From assembly GCF_028649455.1 (NCBI RefSeq), contig NZ_JAQSIO010000001.1, forward strand, positions 372,001-436,000: a stretch of 64,000 nt of DNA. The letters are read 5' to 3'. A program made the position numbers and the translations under genes. The notes under the pieces are model-generated. The model was not told the DNA's origin and searched no databases. It saw only the letters and a list, made by a program, of their open reading frames with translations. Positions within the stretch are counted from its first letter, which is position 1; the number at the start of each line of letters is the position of its first letter. Origin of the DNA: Curvibacter microcysteis (lineage in GTDB: Bacteria > Pseudomonadota > Gammaproteobacteria > Burkholderiales > Burkholderiaceae_C). Shown here piece after piece: positions 55,694 to 64,000 of this stretch.

Positions 55694-55822
55694 TCAGGCC
55701 ATCAGGTCGTCCACCACCACAGTTCGGTCACAGCCTGCCAAGGTGGCGCCGCAGTCGCAGGCGAAGCGGGCCGCAGATGCGGAACGACAGTTGACCCTAG
55801 AAAAACTACTGCCGCAAGCCAT
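55694..55822 (-). pseudogene. Possible 3' remnant of a chromosomal gene at the island junction
   Basis: On the minus strand a GC3-rich reading frame ends at 55694 (...RFACDCGATLAGCDRTVVVDDLMA, stop) and runs open up to the composition break near 55790, with a possible ATG at 55822 inside the island. Codon usage in the first 30 codons matches the backbone, but the frame upstream becomes AT-rich. This looks like the C-terminal tail of a gene whose front is cut off by the island. No family was recognised; it could equally be a chance frame. Confidence 0.35.
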
Positions 55823-55920
55823 TGATTAATCTAAAGTTTTCTCAAATTTCGCCATTGGTGTTTGGAGGGTCACGCCACTCTACTTTCGTTTGCTAGGTCT
55901 TTGCGTCACTCTAGATTCGT
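55792..55920. repeat. Repeated transposase-binding-site-like motifs at the left end of the island
   Basis: Related motifs recur in direct orientation: TGACCCTAGA (from 55792), CACTCTACTTTCGT (55876-55889) and CACTCTAGATTCGT (55907-55920). The latter two share 12 of 14 positions and are 31 bp apart. A weaker copy, TAATCTAAAG, lies near 55827. Direct repeats of about 20 bp at the ends are typical of TnsB/TniA binding arrays. The exact tip of the element cannot be fixed without its other end. Confidence 0.45.
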
Positions 55921-55922
55921 AA

Positions 55923-56225
55923 ATGTTGAAAAGGTAAAGTTAAGCCATCGCAATGCCCGTTACAGGCTGGGAGCAGCCGGTCAACCGCTCGCTGTGAAAT
56001 GATCGCAGTGACGTGAAGCAGACGCTCCGGAAGTCAATTTGGGACATCCCACTGTGCCGCATCATCGGCGATACCGCGGCGGCAGTAGACGCGCGCCAGC
56101 CCTTGGACCCAGCCGTCCTCTCTCGCGCCACGTCAGCCGCGCGTTGACGACGAACACCAGTCCGCTGCTGCATGCGTGCCTCTTCGGATGTTCCCCGCGT
56201 CGCTGGTGGAGTGGAGCTGTGCCCA
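55923..56225. other. Non-coding stretch between the element end and the first cargo gene
   Basis: No convincing gene was found here. A frame on the minus strand (55940-56371) is open but overlaps the next gene and has no recognisable domain. Its stop lies in GCTTAAC, an R''-like heptamer, which may mark a decayed cassette end. The sequence is moderately GC-rich, unlike the AT-rich motif array on its left. Confidence 0.4.
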
Positions 56226-57008
56226 TCACTCCCGATCTGGCCGATATGCACCGGAGATCCTGGACATGACCGTGTCGAAGTCGAATCGGTCATGAACGAG
56301 GGGTTCAAAGCGTCCCGCAGTGCCGTCGTATTTGAATTGAGCGCAACGACAGGTGTCTTCCCTTTCGCCACAGTCTTCGCATTCGGGATTGCAGGCCATG
56401 ATCATCTGATCGATTGCGTCAGCAGGATCGCTGGAAAACATCAGCTCGTCGGCGACTGACCAGCTGTCTTCCACACCGCGGCCGCGCGCGAATTCCAGCA
56501 CATCCTCTGCTGACTCGTGATCGAGCCCAGAGAGCGCAGCATATGCCGGGCGCAATACGACGCGTGCATAGTCAAATCGAAAGCCTTCGAGTATGCACAG
56601 CACCAGTCCGTCCTCTTCCACCAGACTGCGGAAGGTGAGCTGGCCATACCGCTGTCTCAGGTCGTCGTAACGCACAGGATCGAGTTCGATGTGCTTCAAC
56701 GAGTTGTTGATGGCGTCGATCAACTCGAACTTACGATTCCCGATACGTGCTCCCGCAACGCTGAAGATTTCGTCGAAGGTTTTGACGAGCTTCGCCCGGC
56801 CGCCAGCGATACCATCTGCTATTCGAATCGCCAAGACGTAGTCGATAGCATGTGCGAGGAATAGGTTGGCACCGAATACTTGATGGAGACGAGCGCTGCC
56901 GCCTGCCAGGTCCGAGCGCAGCGCGGCGAAGGCGGGATCGACAACAAGTTGCATGTACTGGCTGAAGTCCCTGCACGCCCTCTCGATCATTGGGTGAAGC
57001 GTACTCAT
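56226..57008 (-). CDS. Hypothetical protein with a Cys cluster, island cargo
   Basis: A 260-aa soluble protein of no recognised family. The N-terminal two thirds are helical (IERACRDFSQYMQLVVDPAF, LIDAINNSLKHIELDPVRYD), recalling HEPN-like all-helical domains but without a clear R-x4-6-H. Near the C-terminus a dense cluster MACNPECEDCGEREDTCRC has five Cys that may bind zinc. The ATG at 57008 is used; a TTG at 57017 is possible. It lies 30 bp downstream of the next gene on the same strand, so the two probably form an operon and may act together. Confidence 0.7.
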   Translation of the reverse strand: MSTLHPMIERACRDFSQYMQLVVDPAFAALRSDLAGGSARLHQVFGANLFLAHAIDYVLAIRIADGIAGGRAKLVKTFDEIFSVAGARIGNRKFELIDAINNSLKHIELDPVRYDDLRQRYGQLTFRSLVEEDGLVLCILEGFRFDYARVVLRPAYAALSGLDHESAEDVLEFARGRGVEDSWSVADELMFSSDPADAIDQMIMACNPECEDCGEREDTCRCAQFKYDGTAGRFEPLVHDRFDFDTVMSRISGAYRPDRE

Positions 57009-57038
57009 ATCACGCAAGGTCTTCGTGAGAGCAGTGGA

Positions 57039-57650
57039 TCAGATCTGCCCCGCCGCGTGGAGTGCGTCATAAATGTTCTTGCCGATGCTCGTAACGGAGT
57101 CGATGGCTGGGAGCGACGCGAGAAGTGCAGTCATGATCGACTTTTTCGGCTTCCCTGAGTCGATCTGGTCCTCGATAGCATCGACAATCTCCAGCGCGGC
57201 ATTCTTCTCGTCTGGTTTCAAAGCGGCCTTCTGGATCTCCGCACGAAGATTCTGGAGATGGTTGAAAACCGAGGTGTTGACTGTCACGACGTTCGTCGAG
57301 TTATCAACGGATTGGTTGTTGAACCTAGCGGCGTGACCGTTCATGTTCACCGTCAGATGCTGAATTGCACGCTGTGCTTCGGGCAGACCAAGCTTGCGAA
57401 CTTTCATCTGGTATGAGGCGGGGATTCCTCCGAATTTCTCGTGGAAGCCGGGGTCCACAACGAGGAACGTTTCTTCCGCACCATTTGACATACGCCTGCG
57501 CACAAGGTCCTCGGGCTCAATGAGAAGTCCATCGGGCACGCCGACAATGTATATCCCTCTTGCCTGCACGCTGGCTTTGATGCCCTGCCTGACTTCTCCG
57601 CTCTTCTTGATTAGGTCGACCGTGTCGGTCATCATGGAGTTGAACGCCAT
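57039..57650 (-). CDS. Hypothetical protein, first gene of a two-gene cargo operon
   Basis: A 203-aa protein of no certain family. A central segment (RMSNGAEETFLVVDPGFHEKF) is followed by YQMKVRKLGLPEAQRAIQHL, then VNMNGHAARFNNQSVDNSTN, a pattern (N-x-R-x-N-x-x-S-x-D-x-S-x-N) that I associate with small proteins of mobile and defence islands, and a helical C-terminus (VFNHLQNLRAEIQKAALKPD). GGGAG 8 bp before the ATG at 57650 fixes the start. A defence or regulatory role with the downstream gene is possible, but it is inference. Confidence 0.72.
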   Translation of the reverse strand: MAFNSMMTDTVDLIKKSGEVRQGIKASVQARGIYIVGVPDGLLIEPEDLVRRRMSNGAEETFLVVDPGFHEKFGGIPASYQMKVRKLGLPEAQRAIQHLTVNMNGHAARFNNQSVDNSTNVVTVNTSVFNHLQNLRAEIQKAALKPDEKNAALEIVDAIEDQIDSGKPKKSIMTALLASLPAIDSVTSIGKNIYDALHAAGQI

Positions 57651-58163
57651 CTTTTCTCCCTCTTTAGCGAAGTTTAAGTTTGAGTGTCGCATTTGATCGT
57701 CCGCAGCGGACCCTTTTGGTGCTATGGGGCAGCTGTAACTACGACGGAAGCAGGCCTACGTTGAAGGGAAGGCTGGCGTGCTGGGCTCGATTTGAACGGC
57801 AGCCCCATCTCCGACTAGGAGAATGAAATCTGGAATGACCGCAACGGTTCGAGTTGAGCGCGTCGCGCCGGCCAGGACCGGGCACAGATCGGACTGTATC
57901 ACCCCCTCGGATCTGTGGACGACTGCAGTTCGTCGCTTTCGTTATTGACCATGGCGGCACCTCCCTCGGCGTACTGAAGGTCAGCTTGATGACGACCACG
58001 CGCGTACGTGCGCGGACAGTGGCCGGCTCCTTACGCTGCAAAGCCGCCTCCCACTGCTCGACGAAGGCCTGAGGCAAGGAGCAGTCGTTAGTTGATGAGT
58101 ATCGCAACGCCTGCGCCCAGCCTGACTCAGCCATGACGGCAACAGAATGACAGCACTCTTTAC
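57651..58163. other. Gap of about 500 bp with no convincing gene, possibly decayed cassettes
   Basis: No recognisable protein was found. A minus-strand frame from 58134 to 57739 begins 30 bp after the attC-like site at 58164-58221, the right place for a cassette gene, but its sequence is Arg/Pro/Ser-rich and looks non-coding. Structural features are an inverted repeat GAGCAGT/ACTGCTC at about 58054-58085, GTCCGC-A-GCGGAC at about 57693-57705 followed by CCCTTTT on the plus strand, and a GTTGAGC heptamer at 57853. Confidence 0.4.
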
Positions 58164-58221
58164 TCGTAACGTGGATTCACTGGCTCGGCAAGGGCGAGTC
58201 CGGTGCAAGACAGGGTTAGGC
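58164..58221 (-). repeat. attC-like site (59-base element) closing a gene cassette
   Basis: Read on the minus strand, a 58-bp segment starts with a perfect R''-type heptamer GCCTAAC (58215-58221) and ends with GTTACGA (58164-58170), a degenerate R'. Between them is an imperfect stem, CACCGGACTCG against CGAGCCAGTG, with unpaired bases as in folded attC sites. The TAA stop of the upstream membrane-protein gene lies inside GCCTAAC, a hallmark of integron cassettes. Length fits the classical 57-60 bp. Confidence 0.55.
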
Positions 58222-58623
58222 AGCATTGCGTTTGGGAAGGAAAATGCCGAGGCCGACTATGACGAGCGCGAGTACAAACACGCCCACCAAGCCTATGGCA
58301 CCGACGCTGCCTGCTTTGACGAATTCGGCCAAGCCCTTCGAGAGTTGTTGCTCACGAACCAAAATTGCCCAAACTACAACTGTTGGCGCGAACGGCAACA
58401 CTGCTCCGAAAACTCGCACTGCGATTCGCTGATTGAGTAACAAGATTCCGCCGCCAATGGTGCATAGCCAGGTAGTAAGTGCGTAGATCGCCCTCTCAAT
58501 GAAAGTCGGGAACAACTCATCCTTTGTCAGGCCCACGAAAAAGACGGCAAGCAAACCAAGGGCCGGCAGCAACCATTCGTAATGGTTGCTCTCTTCCTTT
58601 CTCCACCACCTTTTGCAAGACAA
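58216..58623 (-). CDS. Small membrane protein in a gene cassette (second frame)
   Basis: A 135-aa hydrophobic protein with about four membrane helices (YEWLLPALGLLAVFFVG, LTTWLCTIGGGILLL, FGAVLPFAPTVVVWAI, AIGLVGVFVLALVIVGLGIF). No family recognised. Its start overlaps the end of the preceding ORF by 107 bp in another frame, so either the two overlap strongly or a frameshift has split one gene. The stop codon lies in the attC-like heptamer GCCTAAC. Cassette genes for small membrane proteins are common. Confidence 0.55.
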   Translation of the reverse strand: MSCKRWWRKEESNHYEWLLPALGLLAVFFVGLTKDELFPTFIERAIYALTTWLCTIGGGILLLNQRIAVRVFGAVLPFAPTVVVWAILVREQQLSKGLAEFVKAGSVGAIGLVGVFVLALVIVGLGIFLPKRNAA

Positions 58624-58882
58624 TATAAGTTACCCCGGCGTCTACAGCGGCCATGCTACCTGCCGCTGCTGGCGCGAGCCAAGGGGCCACTACGCCAGCA
58701 GTGGCAAAGCCAGTAGTAGCTGTGGCCACAGCAATTCCCCCTGCAGCGCCTATTGCCTTGATTAATACGGCAACTCCATCAAAGATCGGTGCAATGAGTT
58801 GCGCAGCGCCCCACAGAACGGCGGCTATCGCTACGCCAAGTGCTGCGATGACTAACGGGTTGGATGTGTCCGGCGTACGCAT
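58517..58882 (-). CDS. Small hydrophobic protein in a gene cassette (first frame)
   Basis: A 121-aa protein whose first 90 residues are strongly hydrophobic and Ala/Gly-rich (VIAALGVAIAAVLWGAAQLI, GGIAVATATTGFATAGVVAP). The ATG at 58882 follows an AGGAGG Shine-Dalgarno and lies about 20 bp after the attC-like site at 58902-58958, the normal spacing in cassettes. The last 30 residues differ in character and run over the start of the next ORF, so the natural end may be earlier if a frameshift is involved. Confidence 0.55.
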   Translation of the reverse strand: MRTPDTSNPLVIAALGVAIAAVLWGAAQLIAPIFDGVAVLIKAIGAAGGIAVATATTGFATAGVVAPWLAPAAAGSMAAVDAGVTYIVLQKVVEKGREQPLRMVAAGPWFACRLFRGPDKG

Positions 58883-58901
58883 GTGGCCTCCTGTTGATGT
58901 T

Positions 58902-58958
58902 GCCTAATGTTGAAGCCAAGCGGAGCCGAAGGCATCTGATGTGTGTGACGTGTTAAAC
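58902..58958 (-). repeat. attC-like site, 57 bp, between two cassettes
   Basis: On the minus strand it begins with GTTTAAC (58952-58958, matching RYYYAAC) and ends with ATTAGGC (58902-58908, one base off GTTRRRY), 57 bp in all, with CTTGGCTTCAAC just before the end as seen in many chromosomal-integron attC sites. The TAA stop of the CPCC pseudogene lies inside GTTTAAC. The differences between the two ends are transitions. Confidence 0.5.
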
Positions 58959-59221
58959 CGTATTTGGCATCTCCTCGGGCAATGGTGGTCGAAAATGAGG
59001 AAGGTTATGCCTACGAGAAGTGCTAAACGCTCGATAGTTGGCTTTCTAGATTGCAAGGCTCAAACGCTCATGTGGTCCGCCGAGCACTTCATCTGCGTTA
59101 TCGTCAACCTACCCGTCGTCTTCCCAGAAGCATACAGCGTAGATTTCATAGGCGCCGCGTTCGCATAGCGTCTTGAAGCCGCTGTAAGGGCCGCGTAAAG
59201 GAAGACCAAAATTGGAGTCAT
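58953..59221 (-). pseudogene. Decayed CPCC family (cysteine-rich) gene in a cassette
   Basis: The minus-strand frame reads GFKTLCERGAYEIYAVCFWEDDG, stop, VDDNADEVLGGPHERLSLAI, stop, KANYRAFSTSRRH...PPLPEEMPNTV, stop. This matches the small CPCC-family proteins (usually W-E-D-D-G-Q-D-D and S-L-x-x-A-R-x-N-Y-R). Two TAG codons (59109-59111 and 59046-59048) replace what look like CAG Gln codons. The CPCC motif itself is changed to GPYS (each Cys codon one base away), and E-I-C is now EIY. A start in frame is not visible; the ATG at 59221 is one frame off, implying a small indel. The function is lost, or amber readthrough would be needed. Confidence 0.65.
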
Positions 59222-59224
59222 GCG

Positions 59225-59330
59225 GTTTAACGAAAAATCAAAGTGCGAAATTGAGGCACGCTGTCGGCCACAGGAATATGCAGTTGCAAGACCACTATCG
59301 CTGCACACCCGACACCGAAAGGCATTAGAT
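59225..59330 (-). repeat. Weak attC-like site upstream of the CPCC remnant
   Basis: On the minus strand GTTAAAC (59225-59231) fits the R' consensus GTTRRRY, and ATCTAAT (59324-59330) is one transition from RYYYAAC, 106 bp apart. Inside is an inverted repeat TGTCGG (59262-59267)/CCGACA (59309-59314). The long form is within the attC size range but the match is weaker than at the other two sites. Confidence 0.3.
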
Positions 59331-59392
59331 TCAATTTACTTATATGAAAATGTTTAATTTTGAGCGGCACCTTTGCTGCACCACAGCCCAAT

Positions 59393-60406
59393 TCAGAACA
59401 AAACCAGTTGAGCCAACGACGATTGTTTTGATGACTTGACAAACCCAGAAGTCCCAAAAGCTCCGAGCAGTGATTGGGCGATGCTAAGGTCAGCGGGAGA
59501 AGCAGGAGTCAATGCACCAGCCTCGCTCAGGAGGTCTATCAGAACGGACGGACTGGATGTCATAAAGAACCTCTCTTGTTGGGTAAGCTTTACCCCCACT
59601 GCCATACTCATGGATATGGTTTGCTGAGCCTTTGGCATCGCAGCTCTCAATCGGCGCTCGGGCACAGTATCGGACTCATACCCCGCAGCCGTAGCGAAAG
59701 CAAAAAGCGCTCTGTGAAGCCCGTCCATGCTGAGATCCGCCATGAACTGCCGCAGGAGGTCAAATCCAAATGCAGCCGGAAACCTCCACGGAGAAGCACC
59801 GCTGGAAATGCGATTTTGATCATCCATCCTATGGTCTATGAGCTGCGCGATGAACAACTCGCCATCTGTAGGGGAAGAGCGAAAGTCAAGCGACGTCCAT
59901 GGATGACCGCAGTCACACAAACAGAGCGCTGGTCGCGTCCATTTCAACGGCGCGGAACAGGCCGGGCACCTGTCGATCAACAAGCGATGGTGCCGGGCAC
60001 ACGCAACGCAAAGCGTGAAATCCCATGCTGCTCGGCAATATCCAAACTCGTTCACGCAGTCTGGACATACACGAGGGTAGGAGCGATTGAGGAAATAGCT
60101 TCGGCCCAGGTTGTGGCCCATGTAGGTTAAGCCCTCCACGCGCCGTCCACCCTGGGTTGACTCTAGTGCATAAGACAATCGCTGCACACTAGCTCCAAAC
60201 CACTGAGCAAGCTGAGGAGCGTCTTGGGCGCAAAGCGTCTGGAAGCGCGAACAACCCAGCATTTTCTTGACGCGTGCAATCCCACCTAAGCCGTTGCTGG
60301 CGGCCATCCTAAGCACGTAGCCTTGCCCTGACTCCCCCGGCCAAATGTCGTCCTGGATGGGGAGCGAATACTGATCGCAATCGAATTGCAACTGCAGGAT
60401 GCTCAT
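59393..60406 (-). CDS. tniQ: TniQ family transposition protein (second TniQ)
   Basis: A 337-aa TniQ/TnsD-family target-selection protein. N-terminal IWPGESGQGYVLRMA is the usual P-x-x-G-E-S start. The zinc-ribbon region is rich: VCPDC (C114, C117), LCVACARHH (C133, C136), RCPAC (C147, C150) and LCLCDCG, a typical TniQ array. It overlaps the preceding tniQ gene by 4 bp (ATGA), so the two are translated together. Having a second TniQ suggests two targeting modes or a heteromeric complex. Confidence 0.88.
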   Translation of the reverse strand: MSILQLQFDCDQYSLPIQDDIWPGESGQGYVLRMAASNGLGGIARVKKMLGCSRFQTLCAQDAPQLAQWFGASVQRLSYALESTQGGRRVEGLTYMGHNLGRSYFLNRSYPRVCPDCVNEFGYCRAAWDFTLCVACARHHRLLIDRCPACSAPLKWTRPALCLCDCGHPWTSLDFRSSPTDGELFIAQLIDHRMDDQNRISSGASPWRFPAAFGFDLLRQFMADLSMDGLHRALFAFATAAGYESDTVPERRLRAAMPKAQQTISMSMAVGVKLTQQERFFMTSSPSVLIDLLSEAGALTPASPADLSIAQSLLGAFGTSGFVKSSKQSSLAQLVLF

Positions 60407-61368
60407 GGTGCGTCCCCACCTCCTGGTCCCCGCATCTCGCGTAACTCACCGCGAATAGTCCACAAGGCGTCTGCAACAGCGAGGCGCCGAAAAGGATTGA
60501 CCCTCCATTGCCAAGGAGGCCGGAACTTTTCCGACTTCTCGATATTGGGTATCACCCCTTCCCGAAAGCAGCTACCGTCCAACACCCACAATTTTTCTTG
60601 CTTAAGCAGCTCGTGGCGGCGTCTAACATTGACCTCAAATCGTGCTGCTGCAAGTCGACTACGATCTCTGACCACATAGACATATTTCGCAGCCAATCGC
60701 TCGGCATCGCCAATACTCAAAGGCCGACCGCTCATCCACCATGGAGCAAAAATTGATCTCAACTTACGCTGTGGTTCTTTGTAGTAATACCGACCTTGCA
60801 CCCCTGACACCGATAAACTCATACCGCACTCAGCGCACTCGGATAGATGCAAGGCAGGACTCTTCGTCAATATTGCCCGGTGCACAAAAATCGGTTCGCC
60901 GCACGCGATGCATCCTTCACTCAGCGGCTCTTGATGCTCCCAACACTCACGTACGCCCCGTAAGCGCCAATACCATCGCAAATGGGGAATTTTATCTTCT
61001 GCGAAGCAAATAGGACACCATCTATATGCAGGCTTATTATTGAACATTCTGAGCAGATCGGATGAATTTTGGGTCTGAGACAGAGCTCCCAAAATCGTCA
61101 TATCGCTATGATTGAGAATCAGCCCAGGAATTTCCACCAATTCTTCAAGACGCTGAAAAGAATACAACCGCTGAGGTCGATCCCAGTCGCCTTTGTAAGG
61201 CGAATGATCCAGCACTCGCTTAAATATACCAACCGAGTACTGGTGATCACCACATACTCGCTGAATCCACGACGCACAACTCTCACCCGCCAAAGGCTGC
61301 TTTGCGGCCCAAAGACGTGATATGGTCATGGAATCAATGGCTCTGGTGTTGTAACTGCTGCTCATCAT
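60403..61368 (-). CDS. tniQ: TniQ family transposition protein (first TniQ)
   Basis: A 321-aa TniQ/TnsD-family protein. KQPLAGESCASWIQRVCGDH gives the family N-terminus; zinc ligands follow in RWCPICFAED (C118, C121), ECWEHQ (C142, H145), GCIACG (C153, C156) and ECAECG (C178, C181). It differs strongly from the second TniQ, so this is not a recent duplication. The start overlaps the tniB stop by 4 bp. In Tn7-like and Tn5053-like elements TniQ/TnsD guides TniB/TnsC to the target. Confidence 0.88.
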   Translation of the reverse strand: MMSSSYNTRAIDSMTISRLWAAKQPLAGESCASWIQRVCGDHQYSVGIFKRVLDHSPYKGDWDRPQRLYSFQRLEELVEIPGLILNHSDMTILGALSQTQNSSDLLRMFNNKPAYRWCPICFAEDKIPHLRWYWRLRGVRECWEHQEPLSEGCIACGEPIFVHRAILTKSPALHLSECAECGMSLSVSGVQGRYYYKEPQRKLRSIFAPWWMSGRPLSIGDAERLAAKYVYVVRDRSRLAAARFEVNVRRRHELLKQEKLWVLDGSCFREGVIPNIEKSEKFRPPWQWRVNPFRRLAVADALWTIRGELREMRGPGGGDAP

Positions 61369-62252
61369 CGGCTGCGTTGGAAAGGGTCATTGGCCGAAGA
61401 AACATCCCCTTTTACATCCCGCAACCCTTTTGACAGAGACTCTAAAGTAACGATCTTTTGAGGTTGGGTCGCCGCATGCATACAGGCGTACATCAACAGA
61501 CGCTTTAGTGTACGCATGTTCCCCCCAGTGGCCACATGAAGCGCCCGGCATGCGGAGGTGTTCACGATTCCGAGATCTACCGCTTGAACAGCGTGGGAAA
61601 AGGCCGCTAATAACTGACGCCATTGCTCATCCAAATCAAACGGATGAATGACGTAGGCGGCCGAAGCACGACTCACGAACTGAGGATTGATCAAAGCCAA
61701 CCGTTCTAAAGCCCTCGTTCCTGCTCCGATTACTGGGAGATTGAACATGTCCATTCGTACCTTTAACCAGTCCGTAGCAGCCCTGGCCGTAATGTCTTTG
61801 TGCCCTTCGCAAACATGCTGCATTTCATCGATCAGGAGGGCTGCAGCACGGCGGCGCTGCAAACCGATACTGACCATGTGATTCAATGCTACCAGCGTCG
61901 GACGCGAAGGCAATGCGGGGTAGCCCAAAGCAAGGGTCATTGCTGAGGCAATCCCGCGTTGATCTACGGCGTCGTCCAAAGCAATCTGTAGACAATTGCC
62001 CTCAAGCTGAGCTGCCTTGGAGAACTCACGATCGATCAAATCAAGCAGCAAGGTTTTTCCCATGCCAGGCTCCGAGAGGATCAATATGCCGCTTGGGGTG
62101 CGCAGTGTGCGCATGGTGTGAATCAAGTCACGGCAGGCATCGCGAATTCGTCTAAAGACCTGGTGATCCACTACAACGTTCAAAATCTGCTCGCCGACCT
62201 TGAGAACCTCAGGCGATCGATGCCCTGAATAACTGTTCAATTCTTTATTCAT
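61365..62252 (-). CDS. tniB: AAA+ ATPase transposition regulator (TniB/TnsC)
   Basis: A 295-aa AAA+ ATPase. Walker A is SEPGMGKT (residues 60-67), Walker B AALLIDEMQHV (137-147), then the sensor region VIGAGTRAL. It assembles on target DNA, links TniQ to the transposase and controls target immunity. It starts 3 bp after the transposase stop and overlaps tniQ. The size matches TniB (about 300 aa) better than the longer Tn7 TnsC. Confidence 0.9.
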   Translation of the reverse strand: MNKELNSYSGHRSPEVLKVGEQILNVVVDHQVFRRIRDACRDLIHTMRTLRTPSGILILSEPGMGKTLLLDLIDREFSKAAQLEGNCLQIALDDAVDQRGIASAMTLALGYPALPSRPTLVALNHMVSIGLQRRRAAALLIDEMQHVCEGHKDITARAATDWLKVRMDMFNLPVIGAGTRALERLALINPQFVSRASAAYVIHPFDLDEQWRQLLAAFSHAVQAVDLGIVNTSACRALHVATGGNMRTLKRLLMYACMHAATQPQKIVTLESLSKGLRDVKGDVSSANDPFQRSR

Positions 62253-62255
62253 GGA

Positions 62256-64000
62256 TCAATCCTCTAAAGAAAACGCTGGAAATGGCATCACTTTTGGAAG
62301 TGCTTGTTGCATTGCAGGGCTGACGAGCATCAAGGGCTCCTGTGAAGGTGGAACAAGCGGGCTCGATGGGGTCATCGGGACAGAGGTCAGTCCCTGCATT
62401 CGGATGAGCTTGGCATCCTTGCGAACCCTGAGCCCGCGACTTGCGGCCTGCTCCCATTTGTCTCGAAGACTCCAGATAGCCTTCTCCATCTCCTCGTATG
62501 CATTGGCACGGGTGAGACGCTTTTTGGCTTCTTCACGTACGATTTCAAGCTGGACCAACGACAGGCCACAGCCATCGTTGAACAAGGGGCGCTGCAACGG
62601 TACGTTCAACCAAGACTTAGCCCTGGGCAAATGGACAAAAACACTACTGAGATCGTCCGGATTGAAACGGATCTCGGTCCGAAAATTCTCGTGCTTCATC
62701 CGACGGTAGTCTTGCAACTCCTCGGAGTTGAAGCGGAGGTACTTGAAAAACACACCATCACCATCCACAGTTCGATGGGCATTCAGTCCACACAGGAGGT
62801 CAAGCCCCGACAGCTGCGTCGGGAACATTGCTGGAGGACTCGACTGCCGCCCCTCTTCCCACAGATCCCAGGATCTGCAAAGCGTGGTGGCATTGATGCT
62901 CAAGGGGTGAGTTTGAGATGCCCACTCAATGAGGCACGTGCACAAATCATCAAAGATGATGGCCGACGTCTTTGACGGGTCAGGAGCAACTGCATTGCGG
63001 ATGACGGTATGCACGCGACCATGACTTGGCAGTACACGATTCGACTCCTTGATCGCGCGCTCAATAGCAGGCTTGAACCACGGCTGCCGGACCGGATTGA
63101 ACAGCATGTCACATCGCAGTTCCCAGCCGATTCGCTTGAACTGGGCCGAATGAAACTCCAATCCGTTGTCCACCACAATCAGTTCGGGTACGCCCATCGC
63201 AGTCCAACGCAATGGATGCTCATCAAGCGCTTCCACAAGTTCCTCCTTAGGAAGAATTGAGAACTTGAGGGCTCTGGCCACGGTAGCAGCTGATGGGCCA
63301 TAAAAGCTTACGTACAGTCCAAGCAAGTAGCCTGAATACCGATCTATCAGGAGTGTGATCCAGGGTCTTCCCAGAGGGACACCAGTTCTCGGATCAATGA
63401 CCCACACATCCAGCAAGGTATGGTCGACCTCTACCCGCTCCATGATGCGTGTGCTCATATCTCCGTGTAGGCTGTAGCGCCAGTTGTTCTTGGCGTAGCC
63501 CATACCAACGCGTTTGCAATCGCGGATATATGGGGGTATCTCTGCAACCCGTCGATCCACCGTTCGCTCCGAAGGAGCTTTCAGGTCCACTCCATGCTGG
63601 CGGTTGTGCTGCGCGATGGTCCTTTTGATTTCTCCATGCACCTCTCTGACGGAAGGCCCACGAAGTGACAAGTAGCTCTTCGACAAGATCTGGTTGACGA
63701 TCTCATCAACTGTCGCTGAAATGCGCTTTGGCCGAACGACGAATGCGCGTCTATCAGCGAGTGCGTATGCATTGCGATCAGCACGAAGATAGGTGTGCAG
63801 CCAAAGCTCAACCGTGGAGCCAGACGGGCATTTGTGGGTAGAAATCGGCCGCTCCCCGCACCTCACGGCATCAATATGCCTGCTCCAGACCTGGTTTGCG
63901 ACAGTCGCACACTGTTCCCTCGAGTAGGTCCGGCAGGGCTGATTAAGCACCGCTTGCACGAACTCCATACGAAAATCGATGAGCGCCAGCTGCTTTGGAC
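62256..64000 (-). CDS. tniA: DDE transposase (TniA/TnsB family), 5'-partial
   Basis: Retroviral-integrase-type transposase. Counted from an internal Met at 63968, the catalytic triad is D182 (RVEVDHTLLDVWVID), D267 (LIVVDNGLEFHS) and E303 (QPWFKPAIERAIKESN). An N-terminal HTH-like region and a C-terminal domain with a Pro/Ser-rich tail surround the rve core. The frame stays open to base 64000 (PKQLALIDFR before that Met), so the true start is outside the window. It heads the tniA-tniB-tniQ-tniQ operon. Confidence 0.9.
   Translation of the reverse strand, partial: PKQLALIDFRMEFVQAVLNQPCRTYSREQCATVANQVWSRHIDAVRCGERPISTHKCPSGSTVELWLHTYLRADRNAYALADRRAFVVRPKRISATVDEIVNQILSKSYLSLRGPSVREVHGEIKRTIAQHNRQHGVDLKAPSERTVDRRVAEIPPYIRDCKRVGMGYAKNNWRYSLHGDMSTRIMERVEVDHTLLDVWVIDPRTGVPLGRPWITLLIDRYSGYLLGLYVSFYGPSAATVARALKFSILPKEELVEALDEHPLRWTAMGVPELIVVDNGLEFHSAQFKRIGWELRCDMLFNPVRQPWFKPAIERAIKESNRVLPSHGRVHTVIRNAVAPDPSKTSAIIFDDLCTCLIEWASQTHPLSINATTLCRSWDLWEEGRQSSPPAMFPTQLSGLDLLCGLNAHRTVDGDGVFFKYLRFNSEELQDYRRMKHENFRTEIRFNPDDLSSVFVHLPRAKSWLNVPLQRPLFNDGCGLSLVQLEIVREEAKKRLTRANAYEEMEKAIWSLRDKWEQAASRGLRVRKDAKLIRMQGLTSVPMTPSSPLVPPSQEPLMLVSPAMQQALPKVMPFPAFSLED

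Follow-up and report, generated by a model that had tools for sequence, protein, structure and literature searches.

How gene cassettes of the integron type come to lie inside a transposon that has no recognisable integron integrase is the question raised by this locus. The window, by which we mean the whole 64-kb stretch that was analysed, corresponds to C1:372001-436000; the genome measures 4.82 Mb, is divided among 21 contigs and is 99.99% complete. An earlier note on this DNA had described two segments of 57-58 bp on the minus strand, each bounded by R″ and R′ heptamers, and both are present, at 58164-58221 and 58902-58958. We conclude that they very probably mark two integron cassettes, now decayed, in a Tn7-like transposon. 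How the cassettes arrived there is less certain, and we favor, with modest confidence, an account in which an integrase acting in trans placed both at a secondary G|TT site, after which they decayed.

Results

The transposon and its cargo

The features that define the transposon within the window are the following.

55778..64000 (strand not assigned): in-window part of the Tn7-like transposon, which runs on to C1:456326 and spans 28,549 bp; delimited by matching inverted ends, GCAGA on both sides and a repeated end motif
62256..63968 (minus strand): tnsB/tniA-type transposase, the part from the first in-window ATG (whole ORF L006:8256-10235, 659 aa); PF09299 above cut-off, PF00665 below cut-off
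61365..62252 (minus strand): tnsC/tniB-type ATPase; PF05621
60403..61368 (minus strand): first tniQ-type gene; PF06527
59393..60406 (minus strand): second tniQ-type gene; PF06527, with 69% identity in Paracidovorax anthurii

The element is classed as Tn7-like by its TnsB-, TnsC- and TniQ-type genes, for which PF09299, PF05621 and PF06527 all score above their cut-offs, together with inverted ends and a 5-bp target duplication, GCAGA, outside both of them. The left end, TGCGGAACGACAGT at 55778, and the right end, which reads TGCGGAACGCCACT in inverted orientation at C1:456326, agree as inverted repeats in 12 of 14 bases, and the right-end motif CGCCACTTTAGTTTCGT recurs at the left end in two copies, with two and three mismatches. 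A short alignment of candidate ends had missed these ends; a longer search brought up the end motif among weak matches, and the ends were then checked. Beyond the window lies a TnsA-like gene that matches NF033179 with an E value of 3.3e-14 at a score under the family cut-off, and we take the gene order, TnsA with two TniQ genes, to recall Tn6022. The transposon is flanked by a LysR-type gene and groES/groEL; these three were identified by visual inspection of their sequences. Its joined target, or empty site, was not found in the eight other genomes of the genus, and the genome itself contains the two halves of it. None of these eight genomes holds the cassette region, and two genomes of the genus that share the LysR-type gene region have no further match to contig C1 in the stretches compared. 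Loci L060 and L061 contain related transposons, one from Paracidovorax anthurii, with 75% DNA identity over 59461-65249, and one from Comamonas testosteroni. The left part of the transposon has no match among phages, and an Rfam search of 55.6-64.0 kb returned nothing at E≤1.

The cargo beyond the window includes DISARM genes, which serve in defence against phages, at L006:13131-18908 and L092:2621-10931 (both minus strand; C1:439.1-455.9 kb), where PADLOC models recognise DrmA, DrmB, DrmC, DrmMI, DrmD and a DrmMII-type methylase. The best PADLOC match of the DrmMI gene is a type IIG model, and that of the DrmD gene is a model labelled DrmA. PADLOC also places a PDC-S39 gene in the same cargo region, at L092:750-2624. 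Inside the window, 57039-57692 (minus strand) encodes a 217-aa protein that matches the candidate defence family PDC-M14B (E 8.3e-9), and its 263-aa neighbor at 56226-57017 has no PADLOC match.

One genuine and one decayed attC

The two segments bounded by heptamers are as follows.

58164..58221 (minus strand): attC site 1, with R″ GCCTAAC at 58221-58215, a hairpin, and R′ GTTACGA at 58170-58164; from covariance and fold
58902..58958 (minus strand): site 2, a decayed attC, with R″ GTTTAAC at 58958-58952 and R′ ATTAGGC at 58908-58902; from position and complementarity

The reference set comprised 20 stretches, each next to an integron integrase from the order to which this genome belongs. Covariance model R1 was built on the bottom strand from 25 attC sites in 14 of these stretches, the sites of the window being excluded; the bottom-strand alignment replaced a top-strand version because wobble pairs are visible on the bottom strand. 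Over 23 loci the model gave 168 matches at E≤1, of which 161, scoring 21 to 67 bits, were taken as array sites; of the remaining seven, one is site 1 of the window itself and six score below 16 bits. Loci from L040 on were also scanned for strict heptamers and folds.

Site 1 is a genuine attC. Its model match (58166-58221, 24.8 bits, E 8.9e-5) is the best in the window, where the next reaches 11.5 bits, and also the best genome-wide (E 0.007; next 16.5 bits) with 150 of 9,245 first-look candidates scored; 24.8 bits falls at the low end of the range of the 161 array sites. The match lies on the plus strand, which is the bottom strand and the strand expected for genes on the minus strand, and this bottom strand folds into an attC-like hairpin of -22.9 kcal/mol with flanks and -21.5 kcal/mol without. 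The internal stem that had been proposed for both segments holds for site 1 and fails for site 2, where the fold is poor and not attC-like (-10.6 to -11.5 kcal/mol). Both R″ boxes agree with the earlier description and site 1 keeps the inverted R″/R′ arrangement, but R′ departs from GTTRRRY at two positions in site 1 and at one in site 2, where the first base, at the end of the second cassette, is A where G is expected. Such departures have precedent: R′ shows no mismatch to the consensus in 100 of the 161 array sites, one in 50 and two or more in 11 (two in 6, three or more in 5). Boxes with at least two mismatches make up 5/19 of the last sites of arrays versus 6/142 of the others, where the last site is the last in the stretch fetched and some boxes with three or six mismatches seem to reflect alignment offsets.

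The relation of the sites to the reading frames is largely as had been claimed. At both, the TAA stop of the upstream gene falls inside R″ (58218-58216 in site 1, 58955-58953 in site 2). A further frame soon after R′ was found past site 2, with an ATG (58882) 19 nt on; past site 1 an ATG stands at 58134, 29 nt from R′, and its 131-aa ORF was not counted as a gene since it has no Pfam match. Covariance support, which the earlier note sought at three sites, is confined to site 1. Site 2 gave no match at E≤10 in the window and scored 8.7 bits (E 0.19) when 3.7 kb were searched exhaustively with filters off, and a third attC was not found in 55.8-59.5 kb, the next match there being one of 33 bp at 57754-57786 with 8.3 bits.

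Pairing of the cassette ends

The cassettes lie inside the transposon, between the second tniQ gene and the left end, and were delimited as follows.

58170..58907 (minus strand): cassette 1, 738 bp, TTAGGC (58907) through the G (58170) of site 1 R′; its own 5′ end pairs with its own R″ at 12/12 positions
58908..59230 (minus strand): cassette 2, 323 bp, TTAAAC (59230) through A (58908); own-end pairing at 12/12 positions, and the limits of a Paraburkholderia match
59225..59231 (minus strand): 5′ core of cassette 2, G|TTAAAC; from the end-pairing analysis

In its free form a cassette is circular, its 5′ end completing the R′ box of its own attC, and the 5′ end of a cassette should therefore pair with its own R″. 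Cassette 1 pairs in this way at all 12 positions, with 10 Watson-Crick and 2 wobble pairs on the bottom strand, whereas its R″ region pairs with the R′ that now adjoins it at only 6/12. For cassette 2 the corresponding values are 12/12, with 11 Watson-Crick pairs and 1 wobble, and 9/12. The 5′ TTAGGC of cassette 1 itself thus restores complementarity to the R″ of site 1, and the TTACGA part of the site 1 R′ reads as non-cassette sequence. As a control, complete own-end pairing was counted in 61 real cassettes, taken from those 10 of the 19 arrays that have minus-strand matches, and was present in 28 of them, compared with 16/3,150 cross-array pairs and 25/510 pairings between different cassettes within one array. 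An unbroken run of at least 12 pairs, wobbles included, occurs in 73/142 neighboring site pairs of the 19 arrays. Within the 64-kb window, two minus-strand places, one of them the cassette itself, and three plus-strand places attain the pairing score of cassette 1, and one minus-strand place (cassette 2 itself) and one plus-strand place attain that of cassette 2; for each cassette, one plus-strand place is the R″ region itself, by construction. Because the score is reached elsewhere in the window, the evidence consists in pairing at the start and the stop of a gene and not in pairing alone. Joining the ends in silico produced an 11-pair outer stem and a fold of -35.6 kcal/mol for cassette 1, and for cassette 2 an outer stem with a weak interior (-20.6 kcal/mol). 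With a sequence profile, native site 1 scored 12.0 bits and its joined form 16.7, native site 2 scored 1.4 bits, and the joined form of site 2 was not reported. In both units, then, the 5′ core pairs with its own R″ and an ORF ends in R″, as in a gene cassette.

These agreements bear on the possibility that the heptamers are ordinary sequence and that there are no cassettes here. The heptamers are short and the R′ of site 1 has its two mismatches, but the covariance score, the strand, the stops inside both R″ boxes and the end pairing of both units all agree, and chance is a scarcely credible explanation.

The cassette genes and their relatives

Each cassette contains one recognisable gene.

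58216..58882 (minus strand): cassette 1 gene in two frames (58882-58517 and 58623-58216), encoding a hydrophobic protein, membrane-type by eye; from the match to an ORF in L075
58953..59221 (minus strand): decayed Cys_rich_CPCC gene of cassette 2; PF14206, 25.8 bits (cut-off 24.5), E 9.1e-6, over a 27-aa piece

The two frames of the cassette 1 gene match a single intact 218-aa ORF of another genome, G714 (L075:7801-8457), at 63% and 57% identity; the frame split may be an assembly error. The gene has no Pfam family above cut-off. In G714, GTTAGGT stands 21 nt before the ATG of the homologue and no attC match was found in the 16 kb searched, and the gene thus occurs elsewhere with a cassette-type 5′ end. 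Searching with the cassette 1 gene gave matches in 22/349 genomes; all beyond its own genome and G714 were weak, with E values of 2.7e-4 or worse, and for that reason were not counted as homologues. An order-wide search with the intact homologue matched 2/399 genomes; one hit was the present genome and the other, a weak one, lay in a frame of 1,009 aa. The cassette 1 gene had no match in plasmids or viral contigs. In cassette 2, the Cys_rich_CPCC gene contains two in-frame stops, has lost the CPCC motif and is out of frame near its start relative to a Paraburkholderia relative. The DNA of this cassette is 78% identical to two Paraburkholderia plasmids of 2.3-2.5 Mb over 58954-59227, a match whose limits are the R″ box on one side and the 5′ core on the other. 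At the plasmid loci no attC match exceeds 12.9 bits in 12 kb, and the cassette 2 DNA has no match among phages. As read from their sequences, both cassette genes appear to be broken.

The limits of the Paraburkholderia match help to judge a narrower alternative, in which the cassette at site 1 is real and the supposed cassette 2 is a decayed CPCC gene framed by chance heptamers. Consistent with that alternative, site 2 has no normal covariance match and folds poorly. However, cassette 2 pairs completely precisely at the start and stop of its gene, in the manner of so few of the cross-array pairs, and the related DNA stops at both core sites. We therefore regard a single cassette as improbable; site 2 fails as a recognisable attC yet ends a cassette.

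Homologues of either cassette were found neither in the 20 integron stretches nor in the two transposon loci, so the homologous cassettes that the earlier note sought in integrons elsewhere did not materialize. Homologues in arrays would support a gene cassette but do not strictly define one. The outcome falls short of a full refutation of the cassette reading because of the G714 homologue, with its GTTAGGT just upstream of the ATG. The central claim, of integron-type cassettes all in minus orientation inside the transposon, is upheld by the covariance match at site 1 and by the end pairing of both units. What had been called a cluster of cassettes does consist of cassettes, but it is not a working cluster; it is a two-cassette fossil with one recognisable attC and broken genes.

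The integrase search

As had also been claimed, no recognisable integron integrase is present in the transposon or the genome. None of the eight genome matches to TIGR02249 at E≤1 exceeds the cut-off of 265 bits, so that the intI gene by which an integron is defined was not found. The best, at 80 bits, is an ORF on contig C11 that matches in two separate stretches and that we judge to be a probable XerD-type protein. PF00589 matches the genome ten times, with nine of the matches above cut-off. Fourteen control genomes likewise match TIGR02249 below its cut-off, which is reached in 144/399 genomes of the order. With five IntI proteins as queries, tblastn across the 85 kb surrounding the cassettes revealed no convincing intI remnant; its best match (E 0.019) covers 49 aa at 66.3-66.4 kb, within the transposon but away from the cassettes.

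Discussion

The junctions of the two cassettes with the transposon suggest how they may have been acquired. The sequence to the left of cassette 2 is ...TTTTTCG and that to the right of cassette 1 is TTACGAG..., which together give G|TTACGA. In the account that we favor, an integrase supplied in trans, whether in the present host or a previous one, would have inserted the cassettes at G|TTACGA, a point just downstream of the second tniQ gene that would have served as a secondary site and not as an attI. The target would have comprised the G of the core at 59225..59231 and the TTACGA at 58169-58164. Insertion at G|TT is expected to place the 5′ core of a cassette at the left junction and an R′ of non-cassette sequence at the right junction, as seen. 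An empty cassette target was not found, the flanks aligning with L060 and L061 no better than shuffles do, and we thus infer the secondary-site step from the junctions. After insertion, the cassettes would have moved solely as passengers of the transposon while their genes and attC site 2 decayed. PMC4618277 also lists GWTMW or GNT as a consensus.

The main competitor to this account is that a complete integron once resided in the transposon and that intI and attI, beside tniQ, were deleted, leaving two cassettes. This has precedent: PMC8649781 describes intact or partial integrons in 10% of Tn7-like transposons, and it has been proposed that CALIN represent degraded integrons (PMC9024848). 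On the other hand, the neighborhood of the cassettes yielded no convincing trace of intI, a mere 161 bp separates the second tniQ gene from the core of cassette 2, the first core site, and the two related transposons, L060 and L061, have no attC match above 13.2 bits. We consider a lost integron a real possibility but a lesser one, and favor secondary-site insertion over it. A more specific proposal, that a Tn7-like defence transposon without an integrase of its own acquired cassettes by direct uptake on two occasions, with a secondary G|TT site in its tail as the target, is plausible, though we hold it only tentatively.

The closest parallel to such an insertion is the aadB cassette in RSF1010, which Recchia and Hall reportedly described in 1995 at a secondary site for the integrase. 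In both cases the 3′ side of the cassette is G|TT followed by non-cassette sequence, away from attI. Here, unlike in RSF1010, there are two cassettes, they are decayed and lie inside a transposon, and the target is a reconstructed one.

The locus also resembles CALIN in that its cassettes share a single orientation and attC is present while the integrase gene is absent. Such arrays without an integrase are common: one survey (PMC9024848) counted 2,961 CALIN against 2,760 complete integrons, with IntegronFinder 2.0 requiring two attC sites by default. The present remnant differs from what is described there in having one detectable attC, found with our own model and not that of IntegronFinder, which is short of the default two, and in having broken genes. 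With its one detectable attC, it would probably go unreported in a CALIN survey. Like the Tn7-like transposons with integron cargo described in PMC8649781, the element combines TnsB-, TnsC- and TniQ-type genes with cassettes as cargo; unlike them, it has no integrase that we could find, its cassettes lie beside tniQ and its cargo includes DISARM. The word DISARM is absent from the main text of that paper on Tn7-like transposons.

The biology is of a known kind, and the locus is a real but ordinary genomic remnant. Site 1 retains a folded bottom strand and the GTT/AAC core and, judging from these, may be a weak substrate if an integrase were supplied. The locus provides one well-delimited case of cassettes outside an integron, travelling in another mobile element. 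Pairing of a cassette's own ends recognises cassette remnants even after the attC has decayed, and as a test it could find cassettes that attC models miss. If direct uptake is true, cassettes would spread beyond integrons as passengers of defence transposons.
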